From Alkalihalobacillus sp. AL-G (lineage in GTDB: Bacteria; Bacillota; Bacilli; Bacillales; Fictibacillaceae): a DNA stretch of 64,000 nucleotides. Location: contig NZ_CP094656.1 in assembly GCF_030643805.1 (NCBI RefSeq), forward strand, positions 2,728,001 through 2,792,000, read 5' to 3'. Each line of letters begins with the position of its first letter. The stretch's first letter is position 1. Under the pieces are notes generated by a model, which was given only the letters and a program-made list of their open reading frames with translations, ran no database searches and was not told the origin of the DNA. Shown in pieces: positions 46,368-52,738 of this stretch. The position numbers were made by a program, and so were the translations under genes.

Positions 46368-48689
46368 TTATAATTGTTCTTTACGATTATAGTGAGCCAA
46401 AACATCTTTTAATCTTAGACCGATCTGCTTCCCAAGCTGAGAAGCATATTGCAGTTGTGACAGCTCGTTCCATAGGGCGGAATTGTTATATTCTTCCTTG
46501 ATGTCATCAGAGTATACACGTAAATCAAAATGGAACTCACCTAAATACGTGTTTTCTCCAGAGATTACATTCGGCGTATACCTTCTGTAAAAGGATTCCT
46601 GTTGATCAGGCAAATAACTTCTATAAAGTAAAAGCGGACTCATAGAATCCTCAACATAAAATTCAAAATCAATATGAAAGTTCCCACCTTGTGTATAGGT
46701 GGTATCTAAATAGATGACCTGATCAAAATAGCTTGCAAAAGGGGTATTTTCTCTTCCTAAATCGTTCCATCTGACATGCTGTTCTTTCAGTCCGCCGTCA
46801 TCATAAACATTGATTTTCAATTTCAAGCGTGTTTCCGGTACAATACATTTTTGGCAATGGACATGAAGTGCCCCTAGGGATAATGCTATTTTGTCGCCAG
46901 GATCCTTTTGGAAGTTCCTCCATCCAAGCTGGGCAACCATTTCTATTTGATCTACTAAAAAAGTAGTGAGCGTTTCAAAATAGGCTCCAAAGATTATATT
47001 TTGTTCATTATCCAAGGCGCTAACTGCATTGAGGAAATCTTTAATTTCCGTCTCTACTTTGGAAGGTAATTCATGATCAGGGTTATGAATGATATCGGTA
47101 GGATCAATGAAATGACCAACATCATTAACCGCATGGTTCAGGACCGTTTCTCCTAACAGAGTAAGTCTCTTGTATAATTTCTCAAAATTTTCTTCTAATG
47201 AAAGATCGTCAACAAATTTCACTTTTGAAATTTCCCCCATAATCTCTTTTAAACAATAAAGAATGGAAACGGTTGCATTAGGTATATGGCTCAACAATGG
47301 CATTTCTGTGGTCACCAGGAAAAACTGATCTTCGCTGCCGACAAAAAATTGAGGTATGTTATTTTCTTGCAACGGAGACAAGATTAAATCAAAGACTTGT
47401 ATGTTGTCAGTAGGATCTTGTACAGACTTTACCGTTTTAATTTCGATTTCTTGAAGATGCGTGGGATCTTCATTAGTGAATCCAGCTAACCTTGATCCGG
47501 TTGACAAGGTGCCGACCCCTCGTTCATTGAAGGTAGGTGAAAATTCATTCAATGCTTCCGGTGAAATACATAAAAATTCTGGATTCAAATGACCTTCCTC
47601 GTAAACACCATTCAAAAAAGGATGGCTTTCGGTAAATGCAAACGATAAATCGTTGATCTGATATAAATTTCTTCCATGTAATAATGGCTTTGAAACAAAT
47701 GCTACCTCTCTATAACCATGTGCAGTCGCAACCATATCTCCTGGATGGATGTCACTTATTTTTTTCTTCGATTGATCAGACATCAGCACCCACGTATCCG
47801 CTGTAAAGCAGCTTCCCCCCCTTGGCGGTGTTCGGTACATATTCCCAGGTTCTCCGTTCGCTGTGAAATTATAAGAGTACCCTTCAGACAGCCTAGCCGG
47901 CATGTAACCACCAGGGACAAAAATGGACACATCCTTCAATATCCCATTTCTCGCTAAGTTATCGATATCCACATGGTCGATGGTTTTCTTATTGTTAAGG
48001 TAAGAGGTATAGTATTTCCATGTTGTTTTATCAACCTCAGGTGGGATTGGCAATCCTAGATCCCTTAACTGATCAATCAATGAGTCAATTTCATTATCTG
48101 AAGCTCCAAGTACAATCAGCTTAGTAAAATGGTGGAACATTTCCCAATGAGGATTTTTCCATTGACCAGCTGTATACCATATTTGATGCAAACCGACATT
48201 GTCTTTCAAGCCTTGTATATATTTTTTTTTAGCTGCTTCATAGTCCGATATCCGATTTAAGGCTTCTTTAAATTCATTAAAATATTGGGAAAGTGCCAAA
48301 CTGTAAAAATGAATAGATTGTTCAGCGAGCTGTGCATTTCTCCGATTCACTTCCCCGTTGATCTTATTTGTCTCTAATTGATTTTTTAGCCGGCTTGTAA
48401 GATAATCCATGGATTGACACAGAAGCGCTACAGAAAAATCAGACCACCATCGTTCATTCAAATCCGTTTTCGATACAATTTGATCTGTTATCCTTTCTTT
48501 TTGCCAGTTCGGGAAGAATATCTTTCTATATTCGGTACCTGGACTAAAAATTGAATCTTTATATTTACCGGGTACAGAACCTATTAGCTTATTAACATAT
48601 AATTCATGGACCTTGTCGCCAATTTCGAATCCGGGTAATGCCAGCATCATCTGCTCCACATTTCGGTCAATTACACCATTCAGAATCAT
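46368..48689 (-). CDS. Large Hint-domain protein of unknown function
   Basis: A 773-residue protein with no signal peptide. Residues 1-250 are mostly helical and Trp/Tyr-rich. After PPRGGS comes a Hint (intein/hedgehog) domain, about residues 292-460: C294 in [11 protein letters not shown] (block A), [25 protein letters not shown] with H356 (block B), then VFDLIL and [12 protein letters not shown]. The terminal His-Asn needed for protein splicing is missing, so at most N-terminal cleavage or ester formation at C294 is expected. Residues 640-750 look like a beta-sandwich. It lies 56 bases after the 845-aa gene, with a hairpin between, and just upstream of sigK. Family not recognised. Confidence 0.8.
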
Positions 48690-48714
48690 CCGTTTTCACT
48701 CCTTAATAAATTAA

Positions 48715-48733
48715 CCGGGTGCTAGGCACCCGG
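48715..48733 (-). terminator. Intercistronic hairpin between the two large genes
   Basis: Perfect 8-bp stem CCGGGTGC/GCACCCGG with a 3-base loop, followed on the minus strand by TTAATTTATT. It overlaps the gap that carries the ribosome site of the 773-aa gene. Could be a partial terminator or an RNA stabiliser. Confidence 0.6.
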
Positions 48734-48745
48734 AAAAAGTTGTTG

Positions 48746-51283
48746 TTAGACGGCGAACCCTTTCGCCTTTAAAGGATCTGCAATATATTGTTGGATTGGA
48801 TCTTTCGGCGGTTTCGGCGGATCTACCAAGCCCCAGATTAACTGAACAAGTGCAACGATTATGCCTATTCCGGCAATTACGAGACCGACTGGACCTGCCC
48901 ATGCGAAGCTCATCAGCTCCAGACCTATGAATACTGCATCCGCTAACGCAAAAAATAGATTCAATGCTTCAAAGACAATCTCTTTGATAGCACCGGACAC
49001 AATTGATTTATATAGCCATACGGAAGCCATAACAATTCCGAATACGGCCATGGCAGGGCCAAGACGCTTAGCAAAAAACTCGGTATAACTTTCACCGAAT
49101 ATCTTCGTAAACACTTTACCTAGTGTATTCTCAGCAACGAATCCTTCCTTGGTGAACCATTTTGATATAGATCCGGCTGTCTCTGCAAGAAAGCCCGTCC
49201 GCTTTAGTGACTGTATTCTGAGCCAATCACCTAAACCGATCGACATCAATGCCTGGGTCCCCTTCACCAGTAGTCCGAGAGATAGCATCCCCAATCCAAT
49301 ATCCTGGATGATTTTCGCTGGTGTGAGATCGCCATGCTTTGCATCTTCTACAATACTATAGATTAAATAACCTGCAGCTGCACCGTACAGTAACATGCCA
49401 AGGGCTTTAGGTCCTTTTTCTTTAAATCCGTCCCAAATTTTTCTGTTTGTACTTCGTTCATCAAACAATTCGGTTAGGCTTTCGTACAGATTTTCACTAG
49501 CATCGGTCATTCTACTGTTGGGATTTTTATTAGCCCATATAGTCATGATTTGTATGACATTATCCATAAAATTTTGTACATTATCGAAAGTGGAAATCAT
49601 CTCATTGAAGATTTTTCTTTGTTCCTCGACACTTTGTTTGATCATATCATCTGTTAAATCGCTGATATCACCCGAAAGACCATTTTCGATGATCTTTTGT
49701 AGGAATGGACCAATATCTTCATTCCATCTCACTTTATTGTAAGCCACCCCTAAAATAGCTCCATAGGCAATATTCAACATTTGCTGTCCATATGTCGCTT
49801 TCATCTCATCATCCTGATTTGCAGTACCCTCTTGAAGTACTTTGCCTTCTTTGGTGAAGTGATATGTTTCATCATCCAACACAGATAGCTTTACATACCA
49901 TTCATACATTTGTTGTTTTATATTCGCAAATTGGTGACTTGAAATCTGCGCTTGCCAGATGGAAAGGTTCGTGTGGTCCGTCAAGAATTCAAAATACTGT
50001 TTTGCCCATGCTTTAGGATTGTCCTCCAAATAAGGCTGGATACCTGGTACGTTGATCTTATACCCCTCTATATACAACTTTTGGCTGACTTCACAATACG
50101 TCTTGCTTTCAGAAAGCTTCTCCCACGCCTCTTTAAGTTTATCAGGCTGGATTTTAGAAATATCCTCTTTGTATTGATCAGTATTACTTAAATTATCATA
50201 CAGTAGCTGACCGATCGCCATGGTGGAATGATCCTTAAAAAAGCTGGTATGCTCATTAAATATGTTTTTAACACCAGATGTTTCAAGGTTATATGGATGT
50301 CCGAAAATTTCGTTTACCCACTTCGGATCTTCTGCGTTGATCATACAATAATTCAATAGTTCCCCGGTTTTAGACTGGGCAAAATCAATCGTTTTCTTAT
50401 TTCCATCCTTATCCTCTACCTCATATATTGAGGAGATACTATTCAAATCCTGTATACTTTTGGAAGGGCCCGTTTTAACCTTGCTTCTTAATAAAGTACT
50501 GAACATACTAGGCGAGGTATGTTCTACAGTTGTAGCATGGTCATGTTCTGCATAATCGTTTGGATGTGCAAGGTTTTGCAGAAAGCTTGGCGTATCGGCA
50601 TTCCCTGACCAATCATATTCTGTACCGGATCCATCATCATACGTACCGGAGAATCCCTTCGTGCCACATGGTATTACAATTTGAAACGAATCTGAATCAC
50701 CGAATGGTCCTAGAGATGGCGTCATTTCAATGGTTGTATTCCAGGTTTTTGGATCAACATGTGTAACAGCGGTTCGTTCCGAGACGTCCTGATTACCTAA
50801 GTAATAATACGTATGAAGGATAGGTGATGAGGCTTCTAAATGATTCGTTCCATCCTCCCACTTATTCACGATTTTGAACTGCACCCAATCAACTAATGGC
50901 TGATCTGGATGACTTTTCAGTCTGCGTTTCGTAAGGAATACTGTTGAATAATTCGTCCCTCTGACAGTAAGTGTGTTACCGCTGTCGTCTATTAACGATC
51001 CGATAAAAGCCGTCTTATTCTCGGTGAAAAACAATCTGCCTGAGCGATGATCGATGTCTTTGTCAAAGCTATATACGACACTGTTAGTAGGCTTGTGGTA
51101 ATGAACATTATAGAGCTTCTCATTATTAAGAAAAGCTGTATTTTTGAAAAATGAAAGTTCACCCATTTCTTCCCATTCATTGTTGTTACGCAATACTTCA
51201 AGATTAAATCTTTTCTTGTGCAACAGTGGTGCTTCCCTGATATCACCTGAAGTCCTCAATTGTTTTTCTATCGTATTTGCCAT
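48746..51283 (-). CDS. Large protein with hydrophobic C-terminal third, unknown function
   Basis: An 845-residue protein (ATG 51283, 5 bases after GGAGGGG; the frame opens 17 codons earlier). Residues about 30-235 are beta-rich with YNVHYHKPTNSVVYSFD and a TENKTAFIGSLIDDSGNTL-like repeat of the same style. The middle (about 310-620) is helical and polar. The C-terminal third holds about five hydrophobic segments (roughly 627-645, 660-675, 742-760, 770-795, 795-818) and ends in a proline-rich DPPKPPKDP tail. No signal peptide. The layout recalls proteins that insert into membranes from outside, but no toxin family is recognised. First of a two-gene unit with the Hint protein. Confidence 0.75.
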   Translation of the reverse strand: MANTIEKQLRTSGDIREAPLLHKKRFNLEVLRNNNEWEEMGELSFFKNTAFLNNEKLYNVHYHKPTNSVVYSFDKDIDHRSGRLFFTENKTAFIGSLIDDSGNTLTVRGTNYSTVFLTKRRLKSHPDQPLVDWVQFKIVNKWEDGTNHLEASSPILHTYYYLGNQDVSERTAVTHVDPKTWNTTIEMTPSLGPFGDSDSFQIVIPCGTKGFSGTYDDGSGTEYDWSGNADTPSFLQNLAHPNDYAEHDHATTVEHTSPSMFSTLLRSKVKTGPSKSIQDLNSISSIYEVEDKDGNKKTIDFAQSKTGELLNYCMINAEDPKWVNEIFGHPYNLETSGVKNIFNEHTSFFKDHSTMAIGQLLYDNLSNTDQYKEDISKIQPDKLKEAWEKLSESKTYCEVSQKLYIEGYKINVPGIQPYLEDNPKAWAKQYFEFLTDHTNLSIWQAQISSHQFANIKQQMYEWYVKLSVLDDETYHFTKEGKVLQEGTANQDDEMKATYGQQMLNIAYGAILGVAYNKVRWNEDIGPFLQKIIENGLSGDISDLTDDMIKQSVEEQRKIFNEMISTFDNVQNFMDNVIQIMTIWANKNPNSRMTDASENLYESLTELFDERSTNRKIWDGFKEKGPKALGMLLYGAAAGYLIYSIVEDAKHGDLTPAKIIQDIGLGMLSLGLLVKGTQALMSIGLGDWLRIQSLKRTGFLAETAGSISKWFTKEGFVAENTLGKVFTKIFGESYTEFFAKRLGPAMAVFGIVMASVWLYKSIVSGAIKEIVFEALNLFFALADAVFIGLELMSFAWAGPVGLVIAGIGIIVALVQLIWGLVDPPKPPKDPIQQYIADPLKAKGFAV

Positions 51284-51672
51284 TTCAACCCCTCCAATTT
51301 TTGGATTAAATTTCGTCCGAATGGTGAAGAGCAATGAGCAAAATCACAACATAATAACACCTCCTTCATTTTATAGAATTTTCTGACTTATTTGAATAAA
51401 TTAATTCGAGATTTCCCAAATTATTGAATTCCCGCTTTAAAGAATACATGGCGATCACATATCAGAAGATACAAGCTTCAGTAAGAGCTACAACAGAATA
51501 CTTGTTCCGGTTAACGAGTTAACGTATTTAGAAAGTAGGATGACGAAAAAACTACTTTCGTGGTGAGCATACTAATATTTCCAATTATATACCTTGTTGC
51601 CTTTATGTAAATTGGGAAAACTCATATACATGTGAGCTAAATATCATAGATAAAACGGTCTGTATTTCCCAA
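51284..51672 (-). promoter_or_regulatory. Promoter and long leader of the large-protein genes
   Basis: Minus-strand SigA-like promoter: -35 TTTACA (51606-51611), 16-base spacer, -10 TATAAT (51584-51589). Directly upstream of the -35 an inverted repeat TTGGGAAA/TTTCCCAA (51612-51619 with 51665-51672) encloses a second small palindrome. The roughly 290-base leader contains a stem GAAAGTAG/CTACTTTC (51531-51538 with 51552-51559). It also holds a strong but stranded AAGGAGGTG at about 51358-51366 followed by the two-codon frame ATG TTG TGA. Confidence 0.5.
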
Positions 51673-51959: not shown

Positions 51960-52106
51960 TTAAAATAATTGTGTATAATGTGCTGATTTTTCGTGTGCAC
52001 GATCCATCAGTTTTTGAACACGTTGATTATTGGCGATCGAAACAGCATCACCATTTGAACTGACTTTTTTAAAAATGGTCAGAATAAATAAATGAAATGG
52101 CATCAT
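51960..52106 (-). CDS. Small protein, MMPxHLF family, paralogue B (48 aa)
   Basis: Starts MMPFHLFILTIFKK and continues into a helical, polar stretch with NNQRVQKLMDRAHEK. GAGGTG lies 7 bases before the ATG. It is clearly homologous to the 49-aa ORF at 52229-52378: shared MMPxHLFxLTIxKK start, then I..NQ.(I/V).KL alignment to the end. No Cys, no signal peptide. The N-terminal 12 residues form a short hydrophobic helix that may bind a membrane. It is followed by terminator hairpins. Family not recognised. Confidence 0.75.
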   Translation of the reverse strand: MMPFHLFILTIFKKVSSNGDAVSIANNQRVQKLMDRAHEKSAHYTQLF

Positions 52107-52137
52107 ATAAATTCACCTCTTTTTGTCTTAAATTCTT

Positions 52138-52209
52138 TCAGGTCGTATCTTTCTCCGTTACCATCCAATCAAGAAATACTTTACCTGACATACCTCGTAT
52201 CACTTTCAT
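52138..52209 (-). CDS. Putative 23-residue peptide between the paralogues
   Basis: Short frame beginning MKVIRGMSGKVFLDWMV, preceded by AAGGAGG 3 bases from the ATG (or 9 bases from an in-frame GTG two codons later). It is placed between the two MMPxHLF ORFs in the same way as the 19-residue frame precedes the first one. May be translated for coupling only. Low confidence as a functional gene. Confidence 0.4.
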   Translation of the reverse strand: MKVIRGMSGKVFLDWMVTEKDTT

Positions 52210-52228
52210 CTACCTCCTTGAGATTTTG

Positions 52229-52378
52229 TTAAAGCATGTTCATATATTGATATGCTTTGTCACGCGTTTCATTGTAAAGTTTTTCAATCTGTTGATTCTT
52301 TTCGATTTCCTCGTAAGTCATTTCACTTTTCAATGCTTTTTTGACGATTGTTAAAAGAAATAAATGCATCGGCATCAT
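52229..52378 (-). CDS. Small protein, MMPxHLF family, paralogue A (49 aa)
   Basis: Starts MMPMHLFLLTIVKKALKSE and continues TYEEIEKNQQIEKLYNETR, with a Tyr-rich end. AAAGGAGGG is 8 bases before the ATG. Paralogous to the ORF at 51960-52106, and so evidence that both are real genes: two independent sequences preserve the same start, motif and length. Predicted as one short hydrophobic helix plus one long amphipathic helix. Function unknown. Confidence 0.78.
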   Translation of the reverse strand: MMPMHLFLLTIVKKALKSEMTYEEIEKNQQIEKLYNETRDKAYQYMNML

Positions 52379-52405: not shown

Positions 52406-52465
52406 TTAAATATGGGATACCTCCAGCGCTTGCCAATGTTCACTTTTCTGTTTCAGTCCTATCAT
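52406..52465 (-). CDS. Putative 19-residue peptide upstream of paralogue A
   Basis: Frame MIGLKQKSEHWQALEVSHI with AAAGGAGG 8 bases before the ATG, ending 27 bases before the start of paralogue A. It is the first translated unit after the tandem hairpins at 52501-52595. Could be a leader peptide. No similarity recognised. Confidence 0.45.
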   Translation of the reverse strand: MIGLKQKSEHWQALEVSHI

Positions 52466-52619: not shown

Positions 52620-52697
52620 TTAAAACGCAGTGTTACCGGCCGAACTACTTATAAGATTCAGTTGTTGGATGGATTCAATTCGGAATAATTTCAACAT
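52620..52697 (-). CDS. Putative 25-residue peptide, first ORF after the cluster promoter
   Basis: Frame MLKLFRIESIQQLNLISSS ending AGNTAF, with GGAGG 9 bases before the ATG and a well-formed promoter about 45 bases upstream. It ends 25 bases before terminator-like hairpin 1, an arrangement typical of a leader peptide or a short regulatory peptide gene. No family recognised. Confidence 0.5.
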   Translation of the reverse strand: MLKLFRIESIQQLNLISSSAGNTAF

Positions 52698-52738
52698 TTC
52701 GCTCGACCTCCTTTTGCTAATATTAACCTACGGTGCTA

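Follow-up and report, generated by a model that had tools for sequence, protein, structure and literature searches.

We analyzed a 64,000-nucleotide stretch of the genome of Alkalihalobacillus sp. AL-G (contig NZ_CP094656.1, positions 2,728,001 to 2,792,000; hereafter the window), concentrating on a mini-operon on its minus strand that encodes two copies of the micro-protein YrzI. The operon consists, in order, of a promoter-like site, a leader open reading frame (ORF) of 25 codons, tandem terminators, a 19-codon ORF, YrzI-1, a peptide bearing TEKDTT, YrzI-2 and a terminator. A sequence-only reading of the window had singled out the YrzI pair and placed the feature at 51960..52378; the pair stands, but this span is too narrow, as the leader ORF, a pair of terminator-like hairpins and two further micro-ORFs lie in the same stretch. 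The features are as follows.

52767-52739, minus strand: promoter-like TTTACT-17-TATAAT, sigma-70 type, 10 of 12 matches to the consensus
52701..52708, minus strand: segment 1, GGTCGAGC, overlapping the leader ORF Shine-Dalgarno sequence AAAGGAGGTCGAGC
52697-52620, minus strand: leader ORF, 25 codons, MLKLFRIESIQQLNLISSSAGNTAF; ribosome site AAAGGAGG, spacing 9
52638..52644, minus strand: segment 2, TTCGGCC (motif TTCGRCC), within the leader ORF
52595-52570, minus strand: terminator 1 (segments 3 and 4), GCCACAGGC-CGACGACT-GCCTGTGGC followed by TTTCTT; the end of its 5' arm and its loop complement segment 2
52528-52501, minus strand: terminator 2, with a stem core resembling that of terminator 1
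52406..52465, minus strand: micro-ORF 2, 19 codons, MIGLKQKSEHWQALEVSHI, without EKD; ribosome site AAAGGAGG, spacing 8
52378-52229, minus strand: YrzI-1 ORF, 49 amino acids (aa); ribosome site AAAGGAGG, spacing 8
52203-52138, minus strand: EKD (S1025-like) peptide, 21 codons from GTG, MIRGMSGKVFLDWMVTEKDTT; an alternative in-frame ATG at 52209 gives 23 codons
52150..52155, minus strand: GAG/AAA, predicted Rae1 cleavage codons (Glu/Lys), within the EKD peptide
52106-51960, minus strand: YrzI-2 ORF, 48 aa; weaker ribosome site GAGG, spacing 9
51953-51922, minus strand: terminator-like hairpin 3' of YrzI-2, AAGCAAGCGG-GGGTCGCCA-CCGCTTGCTT followed by a T run; read from the sequence, its 9-base loop exceeding the limit of 8 in our terminator scan

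The operon encodes two YrzI paralogues

Both YrzI ORFs (48 and 49 codons) were confirmed where the sequence-only reading had placed them, each with a ribosome site in front. When we searched the 4.16-Mb AL-G genome with YrzI-1, we recovered YrzI-2 with 41% identity across 47 residues (E 3.7e-5) and no third copy at E ≤ 10. Because the other copy was the sole non-self match, the likeness between the two exceeds chance, which bears out the earlier description of a co-linear pair. Across seven genomes of the genus, AL-G included, the ratio of nonsynonymous to synonymous substitution (dN/dS, as a ratio of means) was 0.19 for YrzI-1 and 0.20 for YrzI-2, calculated from 14 and 12 usable pairs of 21, respectively; the values are approximate, as the excluded pairs were saturated and mean dS was about 1.3. 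YrzI-1 and YrzI-2 are paralogues under purifying selection. Homologues occurred in many genomes, and the ratios were not those of near-neutral sequence. Of the earlier claim that these are translated, selected genes, selection is supported by dN/dS, the E value and the ribosome sites, and the ORFs are probably translated.

Hydropathy analysis indicated that the first ~12 residues of YrzI are hydrophobic and that the C-terminus is charged and moderately amphipathic; the best 19-residue Kyte-Doolittle means were 0.67 and 0.98 for the two copies. This agrees with the terminal characters in an earlier proposal of a putative hydrophobic helix followed by a putative amphipathic one. By the same measure, the hydrophobic part is short for a classic transmembrane helix.

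The family, which had gone unrecognized in the sequence-only reading, is YrzI. YrzI-1 matched the Pfam family PF09501 (Bac_small_YrzI) at E 6.5e-8 and 33 bits, over the gathering score of 23, and YrzI-2 reached 15.3 bits (E 0.022), under that score. Against NCBIfam TIGR02413, for which the cut-off is 47.05, both copies fell short, at 34.6 bits for YrzI-1 and 17.7 bits (E 0.0029) for YrzI-2. Both aligned to positions 1-43 of the 45 in the PF09501 profile, nearly full length, in tandem. Judged by these profile matches, the micro-proteins are members of the YrzI family known from Bacillus, YrzI-2 being joined to it through its similarity to YrzI-1.

PF09501 was found over its cut-off in 22 of 34 genomes of the bacterial family (Fictibacillaceae), and a YrzI ORF in an operon context of this kind was visible in 31 of the 34 (29 loci plus G031 and G029). 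At order level, 204 of 397 genomes matched at E ≤ 0.01, 190 of them above the cut-off, and several had two to five matches. Among 14 control genomes, only B. subtilis matched. We did not use the tally at E ≤ 1 (32 of 34 family genomes) as evidence, because 7 of the 14 controls match at the same level. The scan of named genomes yielded 15 YrzI loci from Fictibacillus and one from Bacillus chungangensis.

A scripted survey of 30 loci from the bacterial family revealed a common plan: a leader ORF (22-36 codons, with a strong Shine-Dalgarno sequence), one or two peptides of 18-21 codons, most of which have EKD(S/T)T or a variant of it at their end, and then one or two YrzI ORFs. The region scan for promoters returned 7 sites against 3.8 (standard deviation 1.9) expected, so that the single match upstream of the AL-G leader is weak evidence; by eye and uncounted, boxes resembling TTTAC...TATAAT/TATACT precede many of the 49 distinct leaders that we compiled. 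Micro-ORF 2 occupies the site of the first EKD peptide in related genera with two YrzI copies. Its length of 19 codons was kept in all seven genus genomes examined; its sequence was not kept, none had EKD, and constraint was weak (dN/dS ~0.63; 16 of 21 pairs, with a wrong start chosen for G033). In six f21/g24 loci (L120-L125), peptides of 15-20 codons ending in KWVP sit where micro-ORF 2 would be.

The leader is a conserved RNA

The leader has the layout of an attenuator, in which a leader ORF is followed by hairpins resembling intrinsic terminators before the genes; the ORF would be translated and the hairpins would terminate transcription. At least two such hairpins were present in 47 of the 49 distinct leaders. 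The leader ORF itself had a dN/dS of ~0.6 (10 of 21 genus pairs, with a wrong start chosen for G027). The motif TTCGRCC occurred near the leader end in 52 of 62 YrzI loci, and the motif-less loci (L005, L037, L041, L042, L044, L048, L052, L054, L063 and L064) were left out of the leader analyses. The motif fell in reading frames 2, 1 and 0 in 36, 15 and 1 of the 52 loci, respectively, and in 16, 10 and 7 of 33 held-out loci; frames follow lineages, so there were fewer frame changes than these counts suggest. Because the motif falls in all three frames, one peptide motif cannot account for it.

The leader Shine-Dalgarno sequence usually runs on as GGTYGRR, complementary to TTCGRCC, and a GGAGGTYG-type flank (segment 1) was present in nearly all leaders listed. 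The terminator-1 loop complements TTCGRCC together with the bases directly 5' of it, and this complementarity tracks species, as in the pairs ACTATTC/GAATAGT, CAATTC/GAATTG and CGTTCGACC/GGTCGAATG.

To avoid picking pairs by eye, we compared duplex energies of the segments belonging to each group with those of all between-group swaps, using 20,000 permutations. The first test covered 48 leaders in 13 groups defined by family or genus; L008, the one other leader of the 49, was excluded because the script recognized no terminator 1 in it. The segment 2 region paired with its own terminator-1 loop at -10.95 kcal/mol and with swapped loops at -7.98 kcal/mol, a difference reached in 0 of 20,000 permutations; own pairs were better in 13 of 13 groups, although in f42 the two energies did not differ at the precision printed. 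Against terminator 1 in full, own pairs were better in 11 of 13 groups.

For a held-out set, we turned to 63 loci (L087-L149) found with R1, a leader model that was built from yrzI leaders and represents the conserved bases and the terminator helix, but has no information on the pairing of segment 2 with terminator 1. Of these, 38 entered the test and 33, in 17 groups, were used, as no motif was recognized in L117, L118, L133, L139 and L144. None of the held-out loci is in the alignment A3 described below, and some belong to f13, f23, f42 and f45, families that were represented in the earlier set. Own pairs again had the better energy (-9.85 versus -7.97; 0 of 20,000; 15 of 17 groups). By contrast, a control segment 30 bases upstream gave -3.29 versus -3.34 (p 0.54).

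The same test on segments 1 and 2 gave p 0.006, with own pairs better in 9 of 13 groups, and p 0.0002 in the held-out set (10 of 17 groups). In alignment A3, which holds 34 of the 48 reference leaders, 97.8% of the terminator-1 helix was paired, and 24 cells carried changes on both sides, versus 6.1 in shuffles; both-side changes fell in only 2 of the 8 pairs, a number that 57 of 500 shuffles reach. We set aside cross-pairing between terminators 1 and 2 (0 of 20,000; 10 and 11 of 13 groups), because it may reflect their shared stem sequence. No Rfam family matched the leader at its gathering score, the best weak match being Spot_42 (21.4 bits versus 80). The leader is a conserved RNA in which the segment 2 region covaries with the terminator-1 loop.

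These results bear on a plainer account, in which this is an ordinary yrzI operon whose leader has only two leaky terminators, with the conserved bases explained by the leader peptide and by sequence common to the terminators, and no switch involved. The two hairpins do have their stem core in common, and the leader peptides show distinctive features, for example a QLN that recurs among them (by eye). That account is nevertheless improbable, given a motif spread over three reading frames and a covariation that recurs in held-out loci and is absent from the neighboring control segment. In several families, QLN comes shortly before the RNA motif despite differing motif frames (by eye).

The leader model matches mainly upstream of yrzI

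We scored R1 across the order, taking 14 candidates per genome, and found matches in 93 of 299 genomes at E ≤ 0.01. Of the 96 matches, 90 preceded a same-strand PF09501 match by 1 kb or less (median 80 bases); in G053, G277 and G318, that PF09501 match was weak (E 0.03-0.05). Four of the six remaining matches (G029, G183, G298 and G255) precede diverged YrzI-like ORFs. The last two, both weak and in G054 (C69:8099-8190, L117, E 0.0074; C38:5702-5795, L118, E 0.0089), had no YrzI match and no motif by script; that genome carries a normal R1 site besides these two unexplained ones. The AL-G genome matched once, at the yrzI operon. We rejected the attenuator as a general device in this genome, as there was no second match at E ≤ 1 among the 150 of 2155 candidates scored.

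An invariant GAG codon in the EKD peptide

The EKD micro-ORF was present in 49 of 73 loci, lying 3' rather than 5' of YrzI in several other families, and within the genus its dN/dS was 0.21 (20 of 21 pairs). The Glu codon of EKD was GAG in all 48 unique peptides examined, whereas GAG makes up 71 of the 258 Glu codons (28%) in seven genes of the window. The Lys codon varied (AAA in 29, AAG in 19), as did the Asp codon (GAT in 38, GAC in 10). The count of 48 took in only loci with the leader motif; a recount without this filter, on partly the same peptides and including four EKDQV peptides from motif-less loci, gave 39 out of 39. Because the peptides are kin by descent, neither count represents independent events. 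As the Lys and Asp codons vary while GAG is invariant, the constraint looks to be at the RNA level, as a codon-specific nuclease would impose. In L020 and L029, the codons GAT TCG ACC of EKDST themselves include TTCGACC, the sequence of segment 2.

A candidate for such a nuclease, the ribosome-associated RNase Rae1/YacP, is encoded in the AL-G genome (PF05991, E 5.5e-57). Leroy (2017) reportedly found that Rae1 cuts B. subtilis S1025 between the codons for Glu and Lys. The B. subtilis yrzI operon (S1024-S1025-S1026-yrzI) is like that of AL-G in its YrzI protein, several micro-ORFs, Glu-Lys peptide and Rae1 gene; AL-G differs in having YrzI duplicated and, before the first copy, a micro-ORF without EKD. 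The AL-G micro-ORFs presumably correspond to S1024, S1025 and S1026, a match that we made by position. S1026 lies upstream of yrzI (PMC3498285), S1025 is the first characterized Rae1 substrate (PMC11780869), and S1024, S1025, S1026 and yrzI are among seven B. subtilis candidates for direct degradation by Rae1 (PMC10632193).

Leader attenuation and Rae1 cleavage as two proposed ribosome-dependent controls

We consider it probable that the mRNA of this operon, of the yrzI/spyTA type (spyTA being the name of the B. subtilis yrzI mRNA in a 2025 paper title), is under two ribosome-dependent controls, namely leader attenuation and cleavage by Rae1. A ribosome stalled early on the leader ORF, for whatever cause, would cover segment 1, which flanks the Shine-Dalgarno sequence. 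Segment 2 would then be free to pair with terminator 1 at the end of its 5' arm and in its loop, allowing the YrzI genes to be read. If the leader were translated to its end, the ribosome would instead cover segment 2, the terminators would form and transcription would stop. In the absence of a ribosome, segments 1 and 2 would pair with each other, likewise favoring termination. Downstream, the EKD ORF would offer a GAG/AAR site that Rae1 could cut in the ribosomal A site, in AL-G at GAG/AAA, so that the mRNA would be removed under normal translation. YrzI, which may be a small toxin or stress effector acting on membranes, would thereby be kept at a low level.

Folding supplied the elements of such a scheme. 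The minimum-free-energy structure of the full leader contained a 1:2 helix (GGTCGAGC with GTTCGGCC) and both terminators, and a 2:3 helix formed as long as terminator 1 lacked its 3' arm. The scheme resembles attenuation of the trp and bmrB type, in which a ribosome at the leader end gives termination and one stalled near the start gives read-through. The bmrCD genes of B. subtilis have a ribosome-mediated attenuator (PMC4191407), and bmrC and bmrD also appear among the Rae1 candidates (PMC10632193). The bmrB terminator is inside a 53-aa leader ORF, whereas AL-G has two terminators after a shorter leader. We saw no sequence relation between the two leaders; the one AL-G match of R1 is at yrzI. 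In E. coli, the short upstream ORF toiL responds to translation stress and regulates topAI-yjhQ, a toxin-antitoxin transcript (PMC12121999); it works through the ribosome-binding site and Rho, whereas the AL-G leader has tandem intrinsic terminators.

Published expression data from B. subtilis agree with a response to translation stress. The yrzI and bmrCD mRNAs increase on depletion of RNase P or RNase Z (PMC10100781), a whiA mutant has bmrBCD up 4-14-fold and yrzI up 5-fold (PMC10714963), and the table for a yhfW mutant gives 4.3 for yrzI and 5.2 for tyrS (PMC7317962). A 234-nucleotide RNA between yrzI and yrhG, ncr60/ncr2184 (PMC3574147), could, at a guess, be the attenuated yrzI transcript.

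Several observations count against the model of two controls. The completed terminator 1 won at all three ribosome positions that we folded, so an antiterminator could act only kinetically. In unfinished RNA without a ribosome, the minimum was the 2:3 helix and not the 1:2 protector, which makes a protector role for segment 1 doubtful, and the 1:2 pairing is less strongly supported by the swap tests than that of segment 2 with terminator 1. The latter uses just 2-3 base pairs of the terminator 5' arm plus the loop, and a pseudoknot that stabilizes termination could therefore form as well. TTCGRCC was not found in 10 of the 62 YrzI loci, some of them among the best YrzI matches, and the EKD micro-ORF was not found in 24 of 73 loci. 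Congener G029 has TEMDTT in place of TEKDTT, and in the window the EKD peptide accompanies YrzI copy 2 only. R1, trained on yrzI leaders and scored on part of the candidates, does not prove the element absent elsewhere. In PMC10100781, the change in yrzI is discussed in terms of mRNA stability, for which attenuation is not needed. Finally, we found no description of the leader attenuator in the open-access literature that we searched, so that the leader RNA is apparently undescribed, but part of it may stand in Leroy 2017 or Gilet 2025.

In a rival reading, segment 2 and the terminator-1 loop would form a pseudoknot that strengthens termination, and translation of the leader, rather than stalling, would open it. 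Such a structure would suit a pairing that falls mostly in the loop and spares a large part of the terminator-1 stem, as well as a completed terminator that wins every static fold tried. We regard it as unlikely, if a serious contender, since the pairing takes the stem-top GG(T) in AL-G relatives and Fictibacillus, the competing 1:2 helix over the Shine-Dalgarno sequence suits a protector/antiterminator/terminator arrangement, and the B. subtilis yrzI mRNA is up under translation stress (PMC10714963 and PMC10100781).

Neighboring genes and the role of YrzI

Three further genes lie beside the operon.

46368-51334, minus strand: two large proteins, of 773 aa and 845 aa
45568-46353: sigma-70-family gene (PF04542, PF04545), uninterrupted, downstream of the two large proteins

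The 773-aa protein has a Vint/Hint-domain match at residues 293-358, and the 845-aa protein has hydrophobic stretches near its C-terminus (by eye). We take the uninterrupted sigma-70-family gene to be probably sigK.

That the YrzI micro-proteins might regulate these two large neighbors, as had been suggested, or serve them is extremely unlikely; in favor is their adjacency on the same strand. Each large protein was found in 1 of the 34 family genomes, AL-G itself, against the 22 with PF09501 over its cut-off and the 31 with YrzI in its operon context. All four congener loci examined have mccB-like, yrhC and YrzI genes, with yrhC upstream of YrzI, and no match to either large protein was found in the 11 kb covered at each. 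The YrzI operon, moreover, has its own promoter-like site and terminator-like hairpin. We rejected the linkage on this distribution. At six non-congener loci, yrhC was upstream on the same strand in four and on the opposite strand in L070, and L073 had no yrhC match.

YrzI could also be an accessory peptide of sporulation or stress rather than a toxin. Pfam describes PF09501 as a 'probable sporulation protein', and the sigma-70-family gene is close by; the promoter-like site, by contrast, is of the sigma-70 consensus type, and the operon name spyTA, known to us from the title, suggests a toxin and an antitoxin. We hold the accessory role to be a minority possibility. A toxin/antidote role, which the sequence-only reading had listed among its options, is plausible because of that same title. 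YrzI is most likely a small membrane-active effector held low in growing cells, as we infer from these features together.

Implications

The assignment of the micro-proteins to YrzI is ordinary; the noteworthy parts are the conservation of the leader RNA and the constraint on GAG, neither of which appeared in the sequence-only reading. Tentatively, and with slightly less than even confidence, we propose that this leader represents an undescribed class of ribosome-sensing attenuator, spread across many Bacillales families and lying nearly only upstream of yrzI. It would tie expression of a probable-toxin micro-protein to stalled ribosomes and, in many species, would be combined with a codon-specific Rae1 site that destroys the mRNA under normal translation, forming a two-step sensor of translation stress.

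The YrzI family is common, and the open-access literature that we searched names no inducing signal for it; the leader suggests one that can be tested, ribosome stalling. A switch of this type could explain the joint rise of yrzI and bmrCD mRNAs under translation stress, and the specificity of Rae1 could be approached comparatively through the invariant GAG codon. If the proposal is true, two ribosome-dependent controls would act on one sub-kilobase transcript.
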